From Candidatus Cloacimonadota bacterium (GTDB taxonomy: Bacteria > Cloacimonadota > Cloacimonadia > JGIOTU-2 > B8-G9), in the NCBI GenBank assembly GCA_003647765.1, contig QMNM01000021.1, positions 1 to 11,213 on the forward strand: a stretch of DNA of 11,213 nucleotides, read 5' to 3'. Shown piece by piece: positions 1,272 to 10,343 of the stretch; position 1 is the first letter of the stretch, and every line of letters starts with the position of its first letter. The translations under genes and the position numbers were made by a program. The notes below the pieces were generated by a model that was not told the DNA's origin, ran no database searches, and saw nothing but the letters and a program-made list of their open reading frames with translations.

Positions 1272-3626
1272 ATGAAAACACAAGCAGAAATCATTATCAA
1301 AGGCATTGTTCAAGGCGTAGGATTTCGCCCTTTTATTAGTAAATTAGCAAAGAAATTTGCACTTACTGGCTATATTGAAAATCGCGAGTTCGGAGTCAAA
1401 ATTATTGTTGTTGGCAATAAAGAAAAAATAGAGCAATTCTACAATAGTATCATAAATAACAATCCACAATTATCGCTTATTCTTGAACATTCTATAATTT
1501 GGCAAAATCAGATTATTTACGATTATGATAAATTTGTTATCAGACCGAGTAAAAAATTCAGTATTATCAACACCTATATTCCGCCAGATATTGCTACTTG
1601 TACTGACTGTTTGAGAGAGATATTAGACAAAACAGATAGACGATACCATTATCCATTTACTAATTGCACAAATTGTGGGCCTAGATTTACTATTATTAAA
1701 AAACTGCCTTATGACCGCAATCAGACCACAATGGATAAATTTCAAATGTGTGATAAATGCCAGTCAGAATATGAAAATATTGATAATAGAAGATACCACG
1801 CTCAACCAAATTCTTGTTCAGTTTGTGGACCAAAAATTACTTATGTTGAATTACGAAATGGCAAAATAGCAAATAGCATTGAACAGGATTTGGCATTACA
1901 AAAGATTATTGAACTGCTAAAAATTGGAAAAATAGTTGCTATAAAAGGACTTGGCGGCTTTCATATTTCCTGTGATGCATTAAATAAAGATGCTGTAAAT
2001 AAATTAAGGGAATTAAAAAATCGTCCACAAAAGCCATTCGCTCTGATGGCTAACACAATTGAGACCATTGAAAAATATGCAAATATAAATGATTATGAGA
2101 AAGATTTGTTAACTGGACAGATAAAGCCAATTGTGTTGTTAGATAAAAAAAATGATAAACTTAATCACATTGCTCCGGGATTGAAGCAAGTCGGCTTTAT
2201 GTTGCCTTATACTCCTCTTCATTATGTTCTATTGCAAAAGACAAAATTATTAGTAATGACCAGTGGCAATATTTCAGACCGAGCAATTGAAAAGGATAAT
2301 CATAAGGCAATGGAAAGTTTGTCAGTGATTACAAATTATTTTTTGTTGCATAATCGCGAGATTTATAATCAGTGTGATGATTCCATTGTCAGATTTGCCG
2401 GGAAAGAGCAAATATTAGTTCGTCGTGCTCGTGGTTATGTGCCTTTGCCAATACCTGTAAAATTAGACACGAAATTGGAAATAATTGGTGCAGGTGGTGA
2501 TTTGAAAGCTAGCTTTGGTCTATGGAAAAATAATCTTTATTTTGGCAGTCAGTATCTCGGCGATTTACAATTTTTCTCTAATCAGGAATTTTACAAGCGC
2601 TCTCTTGACTATTTTGAGCATCTATTTGAGATAAATCCACAGGTTATTATAGCAGACAAACATCCTGATTATTTCTCTACTCGCATTGCTAAAGAGTATG
2701 CTGAAAACAAAAATATAAAAATTGTTTATATACAGCATCATAAAGCACATATTTATAGTGTAATGGCAGAACATAACTTACAAGAAACAATTGGAGTTGC
2801 TTTTGATGGCACTGGCTTTGGAGATGATGAGCAAATCTGGGGTGGAGAATTCTTTGTATATAAACATAACAATATGAAGAGACTTGCTCATCTGCAATAT
2901 GTGCCTCTAATTTCTGGTGCAAAATCTATCAAAGAACCATGGCGTATGGGATTGACTTATCTTTATCTCACTAATAAAAAATTGATTGACGAATTCTATC
3001 CAGAAGAAAAATTCCATTATCAAAAGGCAATAACAAAATTATTATCACAGGAGACAGAACACAGGAAGCAGAACACAGGAAGCAGAACACAGGAAAATGG
3101 AAATTATCGTCTGTTTAGCTCAAGTGTAGGAAGATTATTTGATGCAGTTGCAAGTATAATTTCTATTTGTCATTACAACAGTTACGAAGGTGAATCAGCA
3201 ATGAAATTACAAGCATTGACACAAACAGGTCAAAATGATATTGAAAAAGGCAGATATTTATGGAAATTAGACGATAAACAAATTCCATTACATATAGATA
3301 TTTTGCCAATGATTGATGGAATAGTTACGGACATTTCAAAAGGAATTTCAACTAATGAAATTGCAGTAAAGTTTCATCTTACGATAGTTAATATAATTGT
3401 TGAGATTTGTAAAAGATTGCGTGATGAGTATAGAATACATAATATATCCCTTTCTGGCGGTGTATTTCAGAATGATTTTTTGGTAGAGAAGACCAAGACG
3501 AAATTATTGGATAATGGATTCTCTCCATTTTTCAATAATAAAATCCCGCCAAACGATGCTGGAATTTCTTTAGGTCAAATTTATGGATATTTGAAAGCAA
3601 TGCACTGTAAAGTAAATTCTGATTGA
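1272..3626 (+). CDS. hypF: Carbamoyltransferase HypF, [NiFe]-hydrogenase maturation
   Basis: HypF takes the carbamoyl group of carbamoyl phosphate, activates it with ATP and passes it to the C-terminal Cys of HypE, the first step in making the CN ligands of [NiFe]-hydrogenase. At 784 residues it is full length. The acylphosphatase domain is at about 1-92, with GIVQGVGFRPF at 11-21 and N37. Paired zinc-finger cysteines are C110/C113, C132/C135, C160/C163 and C182/C185. A YrdC-like nucleotide-binding domain (about 205-390) ends near the VRRARGYVP motif. The Kae1-like C-terminal domain has HHKAH at 489-493, DGTGF at 512-516 and SGG at 728-730. No other hyp or hydrogenase gene is in the window, so partners must lie elsewhere. 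The Shine-Dalgarno is weak (ATGAGAAA before ATG 1272). Residues about 592-608 are an insertion made of a 14-bp tandem repeat. Confidence 0.96.
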   Translation: MKTQAEIIIKGIVQGVGFRPFISKLAKKFALTGYIENREFGVKIIVVGNKEKIEQFYNSIINNNPQLSLILEHSIIWQNQIIYDYDKFVIRPSKKFSIINTYIPPDIATCTDCLREILDKTDRRYHYPFTNCTNCGPRFTIIKKLPYDRNQTTMDKFQMCDKCQSEYENIDNRRYHAQPNSCSVCGPKITYVELRNGKIANSIEQDLALQKIIELLKIGKIVAIKGLGGFHISCDALNKDAVNKLRELKNRPQKPFALMANTIETIEKYANINDYEKDLLTGQIKPIVLLDKKNDKLNHIAPGLKQVGFMLPYTPLHYVLLQKTKLLVMTSGNISDRAIEKDNHKAMESLSVITNYFLLHNREIYNQCDDSIVRFAGKEQILVRRARGYVPLPIPVKLDTKLEIIGAGGDLKASFGLWKNNLYFGSQYLGDLQFFSNQEFYKRSLDYFEHLFEINPQVIIADKHPDYFSTRIAKEYAENKNIKIVYIQHHKAHIYSVMAEHNLQETIGVAFDGTGFGDDEQIWGGEFFVYKHNNMKRLAHLQYVPLISGAKSIKEPWRMGLTYLYLTNKKLIDEFYPEEKFHYQKAITKLLSQETEHRKQNTGSRTQENGNYRLFSSSVGRLFDAVASIISICHYNSYEGESAMKLQALTQTGQNDIEKGRYLWKLDDKQIPLHIDILPMIDGIVTDISKGISTNEIAVKFHLTIVNIIVEICKRLRDEYRIHNISLSGGVFQNDFLVEKTKTKLLDNGFSPFFNNKIPPNDAGISLGQIYGYLKAMHCKVNSD
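3046..3095 (+). repeat. 14-bp tandem repeat inside hypF
   Basis: About 3.6 copies of CACAGGAAGCAGAA: 3046-3059 (variant CACAGGAGACAGAA), 3060-3073, 3074-3087 and a partial copy at 3088-3095. It encodes a polar stretch of Q, E, T, N, R and H at residues about 592-608, just before the conserved SSxGRLFDAVA segment of the Kae1-like domain. Because 14 is not a multiple of three, gain or loss of one or two copies shifts the frame, while three copies (42 bases) keep it. A similar string, GACAGAAGCACACAA, starts at 3629 just after the hypF stop. Confidence 0.85.
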
Positions 3627-3897: not shown

Positions 3898-6492
3898 ATG
3901 CGGATAATTAAACTACTATTCTTTCTTTTGTTATTATATTCCAAAGGAATATTCAGTTCTGAAGTTTTTGGTGAGCAAGTAATTAAAATTAGCCCAGAAC
4001 ACTTGGAATATCCCAAAATTGGGTTAGTATTAAGTGGTGGAGGAGCCAGAGGAATTGCTCATATCGGAGTATTGAGAATTTTGGAAGAAAATAATATTTC
4101 GATTGATTATATAGGTGGAACGAGTTTTGGAGCATTAGTTGCCGCTTTTTATGCAAGTGGATATACACCTTATCAGATAGAACAAATAATGAAAAATCTG
4201 GACTGGCAAGGAATAATCAATCCTCAGCTAGAACGGGAAAAATACTATTTTTACGCTAGACAGGAAAGAGATAAAAATATTATCAGAATCCAATTTAAGA
4301 ATTGGAAGATTCAGTTTCCTTCTGCACTTTCTAATATGCAAAAGATGCGTATAAGAATGGCTGAATATTTCACACGGGCTAACTACATATCAAAAAATGA
4401 TTTTTCAAAATTACATCCTCCACTTTTCATAATAGCAACAAATATTTTGGATGGTATGCAAAATGAATTTACAAATGGCAATTTAATTGATGCTTTATTA
4501 GCTAGTTTAGCTGTTCCTTTTGTGTTCTCTCCTGTTGAGATTGATACTGTGTTATATCTTGATGGTGGATTAACTAATAATTTACCAATCTCTGTAATGA
4601 AAAGAAAACCAGTTGATAAAATAATTGCCTCTAATACATCAAGTTTTCTACGGAAAAAGAAGGACCTAAAATCCGCATTAGGCATCGGAGACCAAATAAT
4701 CAATATTATGATGAAACAGAGTATAGATCAAGAGATGCAATTAGCTGATGTTGTTTTAAGACCAGCTTCAGAACAACTTACTAATACAGAATTTGATAAG
4801 GTAGAACAATTTATCAAACTCGGAGAAGATACTACTCGGAATAAAATAAATCAGATAAAAAAACTATTATACAGTTCTAGTGTTGATACTTCTTATTTTA
4901 TAGATAAAGTCGTAATATTGACTGATCATGAAACTCCATTAGACATTCATTATTTGCCAGAACATTATAACTATCATTATAATGAAATAATTAACTATTT
5001 ACGGATGCTCAAACATCATCCAGCAATAAAGGGATTGGTTGCTTCCTTAATTGTAAAAGGGAAAAATACTACATTGAGAATTGAAATAGAGAAAAATCCT
5101 TTGTTAAAAAAGATTGATATTTGTGGAAATACAATATATACTCAACAGACCTTATTAGATGGTATAGGTAAAATAAATTATTTATCACAATGTTCAATAG
5201 AAATGATAAAAAAGCATATTGAGGATAAATATGTAAAAGATGGATACATTCTTGCTTATATAGATTCAGTCAACATAAATAACAACAAAGTAACTTTTCA
5301 TATAAATGAAGGAGTGGTTGCCAATATCAATGTACAAGGGAACGAGATTTCTAAATGTTCAGTTATTAAACGAGAAATTAATACTACAACAAATACTATT
5401 TTTAATATCAATCAAATAAGAAAAGATATTGACCGTATTTATAGTACTAATCTTTTTAGTTTAGTTAATTTTGATGTATCTTTGTCAAATAATGGGAATG
5501 TGAAACTTGACTACATAGTAAAAGAGGTTCCTTATGGTGAAATTGGTATTGGAGCAAGTTATAACACTCAAGAATCCTCATCTGCTTATTTTTCAATTGG
5601 GCATAAGAATCTTTTTGGCACAGGGGATTTTGGTGAAATTTATACAAAATTTGGTGACCAAAGCGAGTTTGGCATTAGATTTTCATCTGACAGATTATTT
5701 TCTACTTACATAACCCAATCTTTTTTGATAAATTATAAATCAGGAAAGGACTATATTAAGGGACGGAAATGCAGATGTAAAAACGGAAATTTGATCTATA
5801 AAATTGGCATTTTGGATTATAAGAAATTAGGAATTGGCACACTTATCTATCAGGCAAAAAATGCAATTTTGAAAGATGATTCCTCAGTATTAAATATAAT
5901 TACAGATAAAAATTTAACACTTTCTGGACTTGGTTTCCAGTTTATTTATGACAGTTTAGACAAAATGCCTTATGCTACACAAGGATTATATCGTAAATTT
6001 GCGTACTCTTTATTTCATAGAGGTCTAAAATCTGATTATAATTTCTATCGTTTTTATTTAGATAATCGGATAGTTTATACTATATTTCATCGTCTCACAT
6101 TTGACTTAGATAACAGATTGGTCATAAGTGATGGTAATGTGCCATATATTGCTTATTTACAGAATAATCCGTCTATAGATTTTTGTGGATATTCAAACGC
6201 GAAAATTTTTGGAGAGGATTATGTTTATCTATCTGGAACATTAAGGATTTTGTTAAAACAATTTGTAAATGATCCGCGAGACAGGTTATTTTTATCTGTT
6301 AAATACGGATGTGGAGATATTAAATCATTTAGGAGTTTTGAAGATTTTATTAAGGATATGAAAGGACTTCCTCGCTCTGGTATTGCAATTGGCTTAGAAA
6401 TGGGTACAAATTTTGGGCCTATAGAACTTATGTATAATAGAAGTAAGGATGATGAATTTTGGTATTTTTCTGCTGGGTATCAATTCAGATAA
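3898..6492 (+). CDS. PlpD-like patatin phospholipase with POTRA repeats and outer-membrane beta-barrel
   Basis: A predicted type Vd (PlpD-like) autotransporter: a patatin lipase carried on its own BamA-like translocator in the outer membrane. A signal peptide covers about 1-21 (R2, K5, hydrophobic 6-14). The patatin domain (about 38-330) has the oxyanion motif GGGARG at 47-52, the nucleophile S76 in GTSFG and the catalytic D222 in DGG, so it should be an active lipid acyl hydrolase. Two POTRA-like modules follow, about 400-470 and 473-546, then a barrel from about 547 to 864 ending in FSAGYQFR. It is longer than PlpD, as expected if it has two POTRA modules rather than one. The last residue is Arg after Phe, unlike the usual aromatic end of barrel proteins. 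The ribosome site before ATG 3898 is weak (AGAGAAA). Lipid substrate and release from the barrel cannot be read from the sequence. Confidence 0.92.
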   Translation: MRIIKLLFFLLLLYSKGIFSSEVFGEQVIKISPEHLEYPKIGLVLSGGGARGIAHIGVLRILEENNISIDYIGGTSFGALVAAFYASGYTPYQIEQIMKNLDWQGIINPQLEREKYYFYARQERDKNIIRIQFKNWKIQFPSALSNMQKMRIRMAEYFTRANYISKNDFSKLHPPLFIIATNILDGMQNEFTNGNLIDALLASLAVPFVFSPVEIDTVLYLDGGLTNNLPISVMKRKPVDKIIASNTSSFLRKKKDLKSALGIGDQIINIMMKQSIDQEMQLADVVLRPASEQLTNTEFDKVEQFIKLGEDTTRNKINQIKKLLYSSSVDTSYFIDKVVILTDHETPLDIHYLPEHYNYHYNEIINYLRMLKHHPAIKGLVASLIVKGKNTTLRIEIEKNPLLKKIDICGNTIYTQQTLLDGIGKINYLSQCSIEMIKKHIEDKYVKDGYILAYIDSVNINNNKVTFHINEGVVANINVQGNEISKCSVIKREINTTTNTIFNINQIRKDIDRIYSTNLFSLVNFDVSLSNNGNVKLDYIVKEVPYGEIGIGASYNTQESSSAYFSIGHKNLFGTGDFGEIYTKFGDQSEFGIRFSSDRLFSTYITQSFLINYKSGKDYIKGRKCRCKNGNLIYKIGILDYKKLGIGTLIYQAKNAILKDDSSVLNIITDKNLTLSGLGFQFIYDSLDKMPYATQGLYRKFAYSLFHRGLKSDYNFYRFYLDNRIVYTIFHRLTFDLDNRLVISDGNVPYIAYLQNNPSIDFCGYSNAKIFGEDYVYLSGTLRILLKQFVNDPRDRLFLSVKYGCGDIKSFRSFEDFIKDMKGLPRSGIAIGLEMGTNFGPIELMYNRSKDDEFWYFSAGYQFR

Positions 6493-6759: not shown

Positions 6760-8070
6760 ATGCAAGTAGAAATCAAAGAAATCAGTAATTGTAAGAGAGA
6801 ACTTTATGCTACTGTTGAATCAAATCGGGCAAAAGAAGATTATCAAAAAATCCTTATGAAGTATAGGAAAAGTATAGTTGTTCATGGTTTTAGAAAAGGG
6901 AAAGCACCGTTATTTATGATTGATAATATTTATGGAAAACAAGCATTAGAAGAGTATTATGATGAATATTTACCTAAATATTTTGATGAAATCATTAAAG
7001 ACAAAAACATTACGCCAGCCGCAAGAGGAAGTGTAAAAAAAGTTGAATGGGACAAGAAAAGTGATATGAACATAACATTTTCCTATGATATTGATCCTGA
7101 ATTTGAACTTACTGACTATAAAGGAATTGAGCTAGCTGTAAAATTGCACGAATTTAATGAAGAACAGGTAAATTTTGCATTAAGAAAAATACAAGAACAG
7201 TTTGCTAATGTGAAAGAGAAAGAAGGTCCAGCAGAAGAGAATAATCTGGTAGTTTGTAATATAACGGTTATAGATAAAAATGGTAAAAAAATAATGTTAT
7301 ATAATAATAAAACTTACAAAATCGGCTCTAACAAATTTGGAAAACAATTTGATAAAGATTTGATTGGTGTAAAAAAGTTTGATAAAATAAAAACAGTAAT
7401 AGAATATTTTGATAAAGATATAATAGAAAAATTTTCAGATATAGTGGACTTGAATGAACCCAAAAATGTTATTGTAGATGTCAATGAGGTAGAAATAGAA
7501 GAATTGCCGGATTTAGATGATGAATTAGCAAAGGATACTGGAGAATATGAAACTATAGATGAGATGAAACATGCAATTCGCAAGGATATTCAAAATGATA
7601 TTGAAAATTTGAATAGTAAAATTAAAGAAGATGCTTGGTTTAATTATGTGATAGAAAAGAATAATTTTGAAGTTCCAGAAAGTAAGGTTGAACAACTTGC
7701 TATTCGCAATCTTATGAATCTTGTAGATATAAAACATTTGGACAAATCCTTACTTGAAAAGTATCTTGAAAGAATGAGAAAGCCTATTATAGAGAAATTG
7801 AAAAGAGATTATATTATTGAGAAACTGACAGAATTAGAAACAGCAGAAGTAACTGATGAAGAGATAGAAAATAAGATTATTAAAGAGGCAGAAGAACATC
7901 AAATGGATTTAGAAAAGTTTAAAAAAGTGTATAAAAAGCAGTTAAAAAGAGATGTAATAGAAAAGCTATTAAAGCAAGAGAAGATTCTGAAAAATGTTAT
8001 AAATAGCTGTAAAATAGTTGAACCCAAAGAAGAGATAAATACTGACAAGGCAAACCAACAAGAGGAGTAA
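6760..8070 (+). CDS. tig: Trigger factor, ribosome-bound chaperone
   Basis: Trigger factor docks at the ribosome exit tunnel and shields nascent chains. The N-terminal domain (about 1-125) carries the ribosome-binding signature GFRKGKAP at 43-50, at the same position as in E. coli. A diverged FKBP-like prolyl-isomerase domain covers about 150-248. The link into the chaperone arms is conserved (EELPDLDDELAKD, then a charged helix), and the C-terminal domain is helical, rich in Lys and Glu, and ends in QQEE. The length of 436 residues is normal. The start is well set by GGAGG at 6751-6755, four bases before ATG 6760. It follows tRNA-Leu closely and precedes clpP by 51 bases, the usual tig-clpP-clpX order. 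The isomerase domain is weakly conserved, so isomerase activity is uncertain. Confidence 0.96.
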   Translation: MQVEIKEISNCKRELYATVESNRAKEDYQKILMKYRKSIVVHGFRKGKAPLFMIDNIYGKQALEEYYDEYLPKYFDEIIKDKNITPAARGSVKKVEWDKKSDMNITFSYDIDPEFELTDYKGIELAVKLHEFNEEQVNFALRKIQEQFANVKEKEGPAEENNLVVCNITVIDKNGKKIMLYNNKTYKIGSNKFGKQFDKDLIGVKKFDKIKTVIEYFDKDIIEKFSDIVDLNEPKNVIVDVNEVEIEELPDLDDELAKDTGEYETIDEMKHAIRKDIQNDIENLNSKIKEDAWFNYVIEKNNFEVPESKVEQLAIRNLMNLVDIKHLDKSLLEKYLERMRKPIIEKLKRDYIIEKLTELETAEVTDEEIENKIIKEAEEHQMDLEKFKKVYKKQLKRDVIEKLLKQEKILKNVINSCKIVEPKEEINTDKANQQEE

Positions 8071-8121: not shown

Positions 8122-8718
8122 ATGCCATTAATACCAATGGTGGTAGAGCAAGTAGGAAAAGTGGAACGGGCTTACGATATTTATTCCAGATTATTGAAGG
8201 AGCGAATAGTTTTCATTGGCTATCCTATTGATGATAATATGGCTAACATAGTAATTGCTCAACTGCTTCATTTAGAAGGTGATGATCCAGATAGAGATAT
8301 TTATATGTATATCAATTCGCCAGGTGGAATTGTTAGTTCAGGTTTAGCTATTTATGACACTATTCAATACATTCGTCCTGATGTTGCTACAATTTGTATG
8401 GGTCAAGCCGCAAGTATGGGAGCATTGATTTTAGCAGCTGGTACTCGTGGAAAACGATCAGCATTGCCTAATTCAAGAATTATGATTCATCAACCAATGG
8501 GCGGTGTACAAGGACAAGCATCTGACATAGCTATACATGCCAATGAAATAATAAAAACAAAAAATCAAATTAATAATATTTTACAAAAACTTACAGGTCA
8601 GTCATTAAAAAAAATTGAGAAAGATACGGACAGAAGCTATTTTATGAATCCAGAAGAGGCTAAAGAGTACGGAATTATTGATGAAGTTATTAAAAGTAGG
8701 AAACAATTGGTAAAATAG
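8122..8718 (+). CDS. clpP: ClpP protease subunit with Ser at the catalytic Asp position
   Basis: ClpP forms a barrel of two seven-membered rings that degrades proteins fed in by ClpX. The 198 residues align with S. aureus ClpP without gaps through residue 174. The nucleophile is S98 (GQAASMGA) and the base is H123 (MIHQP), and the substrate-binding loop YINSPGG is at 63-69. The usual third member of the triad, the last Asp of DTDRD, is replaced: this protein reads DTDRSYF with S172 (AGC at 8632-8634). From GAC or GAT that needs at least two base changes, so a single read error is unlikely. Everything else looks intact, including the N-terminal LIPMVVE and the hydrophobic pocket region. AGGAGG at 8111-8116 sets the start at ATG 8122. 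It is probably cotranscribed with tig; clpX follows after a 380-base gap. The identity is certain; the activity is open. Confidence 0.97.
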
Positions 8719-8788
8719 AGAATAATAATACATAGATCAGCACAGATAAAAAATTTAAGTTTCGCAGGAGATATTGTGAAAATTACCT

Positions 8789-9000
8789 AATTACAAATAA
8801 CTAATTTCTAATGAAATTTCAAATTACAAATAACAAATTACAAAATAGGAAGAAACACAATTTAGAGGAGAGAACTGGAAAGTTTGATGATGATATTATA
8901 GAATTTGCTAAAAAATTCCAAAAAATCCGAGCAGAAACAATGACTTTGTCATTTATATTTTGGCATTTTATTTGACATTAGAAATTAGAATTTTGAAATT
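8789..9000. repeat. Inverted repeats flanking a remnant in the clpP-clpX gap
   Basis: The left arm at 8789-8813 matches the reverse complement of 8976-9000 at 21 of 25 bases, with an exact 13-base core: CTAATTTCTAATG (8801-8813) and CATTAGAAATTAG (8976-8988). Between them lies the 54-codon remnant. AATTACAAATAAC-type strings also repeat at 8789-8801 and 8820-8843. The arrangement looks like a cassette bounded by inverted ends that entered between clpP and clpX. Confidence 0.55.
8811..8975 (+). pseudogene. N-terminal remnant of a four-helix-bundle (S23/IVP-like) protein
   Basis: A 54-codon open frame from ATG 8811 to TGA 8973-8975. Residues about 17-41 (HNLEERT, then IIEFAKKFQKIRAET) resemble the first helix of the four-helix-bundle family related to the protein encoded in 23S rRNA intervening sequences, which typically begins with 'DLEERTAKF...IIEFAKKIPK' and is about 120 residues long. 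The remaining three helices are missing; the frame ends in unrelated hydrophobic residues. The first 15 residues come from the low-complexity AAATTACAAATAAC repeat that often precedes such genes. The family's function is unknown. This copy is surely not functional as a bundle. The assignment rests on remembered motifs and is moderately sure. Confidence 0.6.
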
Positions 9001-9098
9001 AACAATATGATTTATTCTGTAATTTTTGCTTCTGAGAAAATTGAGTAAAAATATATTTTATTATTTTCCTGTGTTGGTGCAATTCAATAGGTGATATT

Positions 9099-10343
9099 AT
9101 GTTATACTTAACTTGTTCTTTTTGTGGTAAATCCGAGAGGGAAGTTGGCCGTATGATCAGAGGTATTTCTGGTGCAATATGTACGGACTGTATTAAAATG
9201 TGTAATGCTATTATTGAAAAAGAAGAGGAAGAAATAAACGCAAGCGATTTTAATTTACCTACTCCAATTGAGATTAAGAAATATCTTGATGAGTATGTAA
9301 TTAGTCAGGAAAAGGCTAAACGAATTATATCTGTTGCAGTGTATAATCATTATAAACGGATTTTTAAGCAGAAGTCCATTCGTGATGTAGATTTGGAAAA
9401 GAGTAATATTTTGATGATTGGTCCCACAGGAACAGGTAAAACATTAATCGCTCAGACATTAGCCAAGTTTCTCAGCGTCCCATTTGCTATTGCTGATGCT
9501 ACTACTCTTACAGAAGCTGGGTATGTAGGTGAAGATGTAGAAAATATTTTGGTACGATTGCTTCAAAATGCTGATTACAATCTTGAACGAGCTGAAAAAG
9601 GGATTGTTTACATAGATGAGATAGATAAAATCTCACGCAAGTCAGAAACACCAACCATTACTCGTGATGTTTCTGGTGAAGGAGTACAACAGGCATTATT
9701 GAAAATTTTAGAAGGAACAAAAGTTAATGTGCCTCCAAAAGGTGGTCGCAAACACCCAAATCAAGATTTTATTGAAATCAATACTAAAGATATACTTTTT
9801 ATATGTGGTGGTGCTTTTAATGGCATAGAGAAAATTATTACTGAGAGAACTAAACAAAATGCTATTGGATTTGGTGTAGATGTAATTAGTAAAAAAAGAA
9901 AGAGTTTAAATTCCATACTGGCTCATGTTGAACCACAAGATTTCTTGCGATATGGACTAATTCCCGAGTTAATTGGAAGATTGCCAGTAATTGCAACTTT
10001 GGATAAATTAGGTACTGGTGCCTTAATAAAAATTCTGACACAGCCAAAAAATGCAATTTGCAAACAGTATAAGAAACTATTTGAATTAGAGGATGTGAAG
10101 TTAGAGTTCACAGATAAGGCATTGGAGGAGATAGCGAAAATCGCCATTAAGAGAGGCATAGGTGCTCGCGGATTACGAGCAATTATGGAGGACTTTATGA
10201 GTAATATTATGTTTGAATTGCCTTCCAAACCTGAAATTCATCAATGTATCATCTCTGAAAATGTAGTACTAAAAAAAGAAAAACCACTTTGTAATCTTAG
10301 AAGTAAAGATGATACTCAAGAAATACACAAGTCCGTAGCATAA
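9099..10343 (+). CDS. clpX: ClpX, AAA+ unfoldase of the ClpXP protease
   Basis: ClpX unfolds tagged or damaged proteins with ATP and threads them into ClpP. The N-terminal zinc domain has C6, C9, C28 and C31. Walker A is GPTGTGKT at 108-115, pore loop GYVG at 141-144, Walker B IDE at 172-174, RKH loop at 217-219, the IGF loop that docks on ClpP at 256-258, an arginine-finger region with R294 in ELIGRLP, and sensor 2 GARGLR at 355-360. All functional elements are present in 414 residues. The start at ATG 9099 is preceded by AGGTGA at 9089-9094. The intact IGF loop shows that docking on ClpP is kept, which bears on the unusual ClpP encoded upstream. The 380-base gap after clpP suggests a separate promoter; TATATT at 9052-9057 is a weak candidate -10. 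Confidence 0.97.

Follow-up and report, generated by a model that had tools for sequence, protein, structure and literature searches.

The ClpP encoded in the window, the whole stretch of 11,213 nucleotides from a Cloacimonadota bacterium analyzed here, keeps the nucleophile and the general base of its family but carries a serine at the position of the third catalytic residue, Asp172. Textbooks present the Asp of the ClpP triad as invariant and Listeria ClpP1 as an odd accessory exception. Judged from alignments and trees, exchanges of this third residue in housekeeping ClpPs recur and can be reversed, and the one seen here is real barring a one-base sequencing error. With moderate confidence, we propose that the window encodes a working housekeeping ClpXP whose ClpP went from Asp to Asn to Ser at this position, catalysis relying on Ser98 and His123, resting activity being low, and ClpX acting as the switch.

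By homology, the window protein is a family S14 ClpP peptidase, with matches of 284.7 bits to PF00574 and 314.2 bits to TIGR00493 that exceed the curated cut-offs of both models (20.2 and 308.6). Residue numbers follow S. aureus ClpP, and the solved ClpP chains, which match without gaps, agree with this numbering. The alignment to S. aureus ClpP and to the solved ClpPs has no gaps and confirms what the first-pass annotation had read for S98 (AASM context) and H123 (MIHQP context), as well as the Ser at residue 172. However, that annotation placed the Ser172 codon at 8632-8634, which is one codon early; codons 168 to 173 read GAT ACG GAC AGA AGC TAT, so that 8632-8634 is AGA, encoding Arg171. 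Where the canonical Ser-His-Asp arrangement has Asp172, the window ClpP has Ser (Table 1).

Table 1. Positions of clpP, its active-site codons, and its conserved neighbors in the window.
Feature	Position	Strand	Evidence or remark
tig (trigger factor), conserved neighbor	6760..8070	+	TIGR00115, 233 bits
clpP, 198 aa	8122..8718	+	Only true ClpP found in genome G000
Nucleophile Ser98 codon	8413..8415	+	S. aureus alignment; Ser in 228/228 aligned rows with a residue there
His123 codon	8488..8490	+	S. aureus alignment; His in 229/229
Asp170-Arg171 oligomerization sensor, intact	8629..8634	+	Arg171 in 228/228; D/E at 170 wherever a residue is present
Ser172 codon AGC, at triad Asp position	8635..8637	+	S. 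aureus alignment, codon readout
clpX, 414 aa, every motif present	9099..10343	+	TIGR00382, 606.9 bits; motif check

The genes of the window are a prepilin-peptidase-like gene, hypF, a patatin/POTRA/Omp85 fusion, tRNA-Leu, tig, clpP, clpX, and a partial ABC transporter gene, and the order tig-clpP-clpX is common to the window and to a genome of the phylum WOR-3 (G350). The window ClpX keeps its zinc fold, Walker A and B motifs, GYVG pore loop, IGF loop, and sensor 2, in agreement with the earlier description of its zinc domain and loops as intact. The accompanying suggestion that the pair is still used looks correct, clpX being intact and adjoining clpP. Between both genes lies an AT-rich gap of 380 bases (8719-9098) with degenerate AATTACAAATAACAAATTAC repeats, whereas in G350 (locus L201) they overlap by four bases.

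A comparison with 109 other Cloacimonadota ClpPs, in which S98 and H123 are kept, shows Asn at residue 172 in 98 of them and Asp in 10, one sequence ending before the site. All 10 Asp172 proteins belong to a single genus, g10. Ser172 is absent from the 108 readable relatives, none of which comes from the window's own family; this is the outcome of the alignment that had been proposed as a check of whether S172 is fixed in the lineage. The Asn codons in Cloacimonadota are AAT or AAC and, since the lineage codon is Asn, the AGC of Ser172 is one transition (AAC to AGC) from the lineage norm, while two changes separate it from Asp. Then, the direct Asp-to-Ser loss described by the first-pass annotation gives way to a Ser that arose from an Asn background. 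Moreover, pattern matches that had passed a visual check of their ClpP context gave N40 D15 E6 S1 at residue 172 in the WOR-3 sample, N54 D17 in Marinimicrobia, and N19 D3 in Calditrichota; among the named loci, those of Aquificota, Nitrospirota, and Desulfobacterota have Asp172. The Glu172 ClpPs form one WOR-3 clade. At loci L207-L211 and L240, the motif reads DTDRE, a Ser-His-Glu arrangement in what is mostly the only ClpP of the genome. No report of sole Asn172 ClpPs was found in the literature searched, which leaves most subscription journals outside, so an earlier mention is possible.

The second Ser172 ClpP, that of G350, is full length, single in its genome, and part of an intact tig-clpP-clpX operon with overlapping genes; it was the only Ser-type protein in a scan of 147 WOR-3 genomes with a pattern that misses part of the true ClpPs. 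In a careful tree, built on a smaller row set under a mixture model and with column 172 removed, the G350 protein clusters with the WOR-3 Asn ClpPs (support 97/94) and the window ClpP with its own order (94/89), and a common origin of both Ser172 rows is rejected (p-AU 0.0005). A large quick tree places both rows in the same way, but there forcing them together gives a p-AU of 0.30. As for reversal, genus g10 is nested in the Asn-bearing family f3, and forcing it out is rejected in the careful subset (p-AU 0.003), the corresponding value in the large quick tree being 0.53. On this phylogenetic evidence, Asp172 is a residue regained from Asn in g10. The proteins of this genus (L136-L141 and L161-L164) gained Arg132 and Trp126, which belong to the handle region or its surroundings, along with the recovered Asp172. 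On the 227-row tree, the minimum for site 172 is 15 changes.

Outside residue 172, the window ClpP is well conserved. Along residues 3 to 193, position 172 is the only one where the window residue is unseen in 136 relatives, which argues against a general decay of the protein. Among the 63 columns with an identity of 95% or more, the window departs at one, I103, a residue common to five relatives, and in a larger set of relatives Tyr34 and Ser172 are the only window residues of such rarity. Differences between clpP and its relatives amount to 0.50-0.64 at third codon positions versus 0.11-0.23 at the other two; for one relative, the values by codon position are 0.21/0.12/0.61, consistent with purifying selection.

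The window genome, G000, is a draft of 1.97 Mb in 360 contigs, 88.8% complete, from which a second clpP could be missing. A Pfam search of this assembly gave one strong ClpP match and four weak PF00574 matches, and revealed no second true ClpP. Of the weak matches, one is SppA-like and another is ClpP-like and by eye resembles a phage prohead protease; the remaining two lie within long frames, one of 454 aa and one of 854 aa. The ClpP-like protein (L002, 1111-1971, minus strand) bears SPGG and MYMAHRES motifs and is possibly a phage prohead protease. Nearly all the Asn-type genomes checked carry a single ClpP, including chromosome-titled records and a one-contig relative. The second ClpP partner considered by the first-pass annotation was thus found neither in G000 nor in nearly all of these genomes, and a division of labor like that of Listeria ClpP1 and ClpP2 is unsupported. 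Also, no Clp_N domain protein (ClpA/ClpC) was found in the assembly, which makes ClpX the likely partner of ClpP. Two Lon proteases are present in G000.

Published mutants indicate that Ser and His are indispensable and that the third residue modulates. In Pseudomonas plecoglossicida ClpP2, Ala in place of Ser or His abolishes peptidase activity, whereas the Asp-to-Ala and Asp-to-Pro mutants keep 16% and 13% of it, respectively (PMC12900304). The D172N mutant of S. aureus ClpP is an inactive compressed tetradecamer that ADEP, sitting in the same docking pockets as the ClpX loops, converts to an active extended form (PMC7496096, PMC8182300, PMC9035409). Listeria ClpP1, with Asn172, is alone an inactive heptamer that requires ClpP2, and its Asn-to-Asp mutant becomes tetradecameric and more active (PMC5361862).

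In the sequence of events that we propose, an ancestor first exchanged Asp172 for Asn, the residue of most sampled Cloacimonadota, WOR-3, Marinimicrobia, and Calditrichota; a single-base change then turned Asn into Ser in the window lineage. The window ClpP most likely still hydrolyzes peptides through Ser98 and His123; a hydrogen bond to His123 from the hydroxyl of Ser172, or from a water molecule, would be weak at best. Because no charged residue would hold His123 and favor the extended barrel, the protein probably rests in a compressed state of low activity and, by analogy with the S. aureus D172N work, docking of ClpX in the hydrophobic pockets would render it active. Given that no second ClpP was found, the simplest reading is that, for Asn172 and Ser172 ClpPs, ClpX docking would play the role taken by ClpP2 in Listeria or by ADEP in S. 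aureus D172N. Among the options listed in the first-pass annotation, a conditionally active, ClpX-activated ClpP then appears the most plausible. An AlphaFold model built with 35 relatives (mean pLDDT of 60.8, below 50 at residues 87-133) is too poor to describe the surroundings of His123.

A comparison with known ClpPs places the window protein close to the canonical enzymes of S. aureus and E. coli (S14, TIGR00493), with which it shares full-length homology, Ser98, His123, the oligomerization sensor, the pocket Tyr63, and the clpX neighbor; the difference is Asp172 in those enzymes, Ser in the window, and Asn in most of the phylum. The nearest experimental model is S. aureus D172N, a neutral residue 172 in a canonical ClpP body, although it is engineered, bears Asn instead of Ser, and stays compressed and inactive until ADEP binds. 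Listeria monocytogenes ClpP1 is similar in its neutral residue 172, but it is an accessory paralogue without the N-terminal chaperone-binding motif, whereas the window ClpP is the sole one found, adjoins clpX, and aligns ungapped to canonical ClpPs from residues 1-3. Likewise, the ClpP1 of P. plecoglossicida (Ser-His-Pro) conserves Ser and His next to a non-Asp third residue; nonetheless, it is a divergent second paralogue, truncated at the N terminus and of low activity, in contrast to the single-copy and well-conserved window ClpP.

Other explanations of Ser172 have to be weighed against this proposal. A base-calling or assembly error, the true codon being AAC and the protein an ordinary Asn172 ClpP of its phylum, is unlikely: AGC and AAC differ by one base, the assembly is a draft, and Ser occurs in none of the readable Cloacimonadota relatives, but Ser172 arose independently in a second phylum, in a gene that is otherwise intact, and the remainder of the window clpP is without sign of errors. 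It is similarly improbable that the protein is a dead or dying subunit that has lost proteolysis and persists only to provide ClpX with a docking or regulatory barrel, degradation being left to the two Lon proteases. The lost triad residue, the inactivity of Listeria ClpP1 with Asn when alone, and the pair of Lon genes would fit such a subunit; however, S98 and H123 are conserved along with almost all near-invariant columns, the pore and docking loops of ClpX are intact, whole phyla keep the gene with a non-Asp residue, and the Asp-to-Ala mutant of P. plecoglossicida ClpP2 remains partly active (PMC12900304).

A hetero-complex of the Listeria type, in which the window ClpP requires a second, Asp-bearing ClpP ring, has that precedent and the incompleteness of the genome in its favor, but we regard it as highly improbable in view of the single ClpP of nearly all Asn-type genomes, chromosome-titled and one-contig records among them, and of the weaker PF00574 matches in G000, which include SppA and the phage-like protein and no second ClpP. 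Finally, takeover of the Asp172 role by another residue would account for the occurrence of S, N, D, and E at position 172, and Gln132 of the handle QxT motif is present in 149/150 non-Asp rows, while 14/14 rows with R132 or V132 have Asp172. Nevertheless, Gln132 is usual in Asp-type ClpPs too and cannot substitute for a carboxylate, and in paired comparisons of low power no column co-varies with Asn172, nor is an acidic residue gained among the best-associated columns, making this takeover very unlikely. In the Asn-versus-Asp contrast, the most strongly associated columns (129, 50, 62, and others) reflect ancestry, and independent pairs gave no support. As a lead, the Gln132 pattern fits a barrel that may lean on the handle contact when Asp172 is absent, a post hoc observation from few independent events.

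Other features of the window are worth recording. In hypF, a 14-nucleotide tandem repeat, CACAGGAAGCAGAA, occurs in about 3.5 copies in frame (3046-3095) and inserts the hydrophilic stretch EHRKQNTGSRTQEN into the Kae1-like portion of the protein. The fusion gene at 3898-6492 encodes a protein of 864 aa that combines a patatin phospholipase, a POTRA domain, and an Omp85 barrel. Three pairs of intergenic repeats, 77-79% identical, lie at 49-92/11084-11127, 181-214/11141-11174, and 3796-3838/11020-11062, one of them with a hairpin, AGAACGCTTTAGCGTTCT, which suggests a dispersed repeat family in the genome.

Since the window Ser is a further step among phyla whose only ClpP mostly has Asn, the "essential" third catalytic residue looks, from the sequences compared, optional across much of the bacterial tree. 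More tentatively, and somewhat short of an even chance, several phyla (Cloacimonadota, WOR-3, Marinimicrobia, Calditrichota) may run their sole ClpP on a Ser-His pair completed by a third residue that is neutral or varies (Asn, Ser, Glu), an enzyme that would be off at rest and switched by ClpX, with the window Ser172 as the furthest natural departure. The apparently sole Asn-type ClpPs across several phyla are more interesting than the window Ser172 itself. Variation at residue 172 would also bear on ClpP drugs because ADEP-like activators act on the switch between compressed and extended barrels. Moreover, the Asn majority, the independent moves to Ser and to Glu, and one or more reversals to Asp constitute a natural mutational series in conserved backgrounds, suited to the question of whether the third residue governs the catalytic step or the compressed/extended switch of the barrel.
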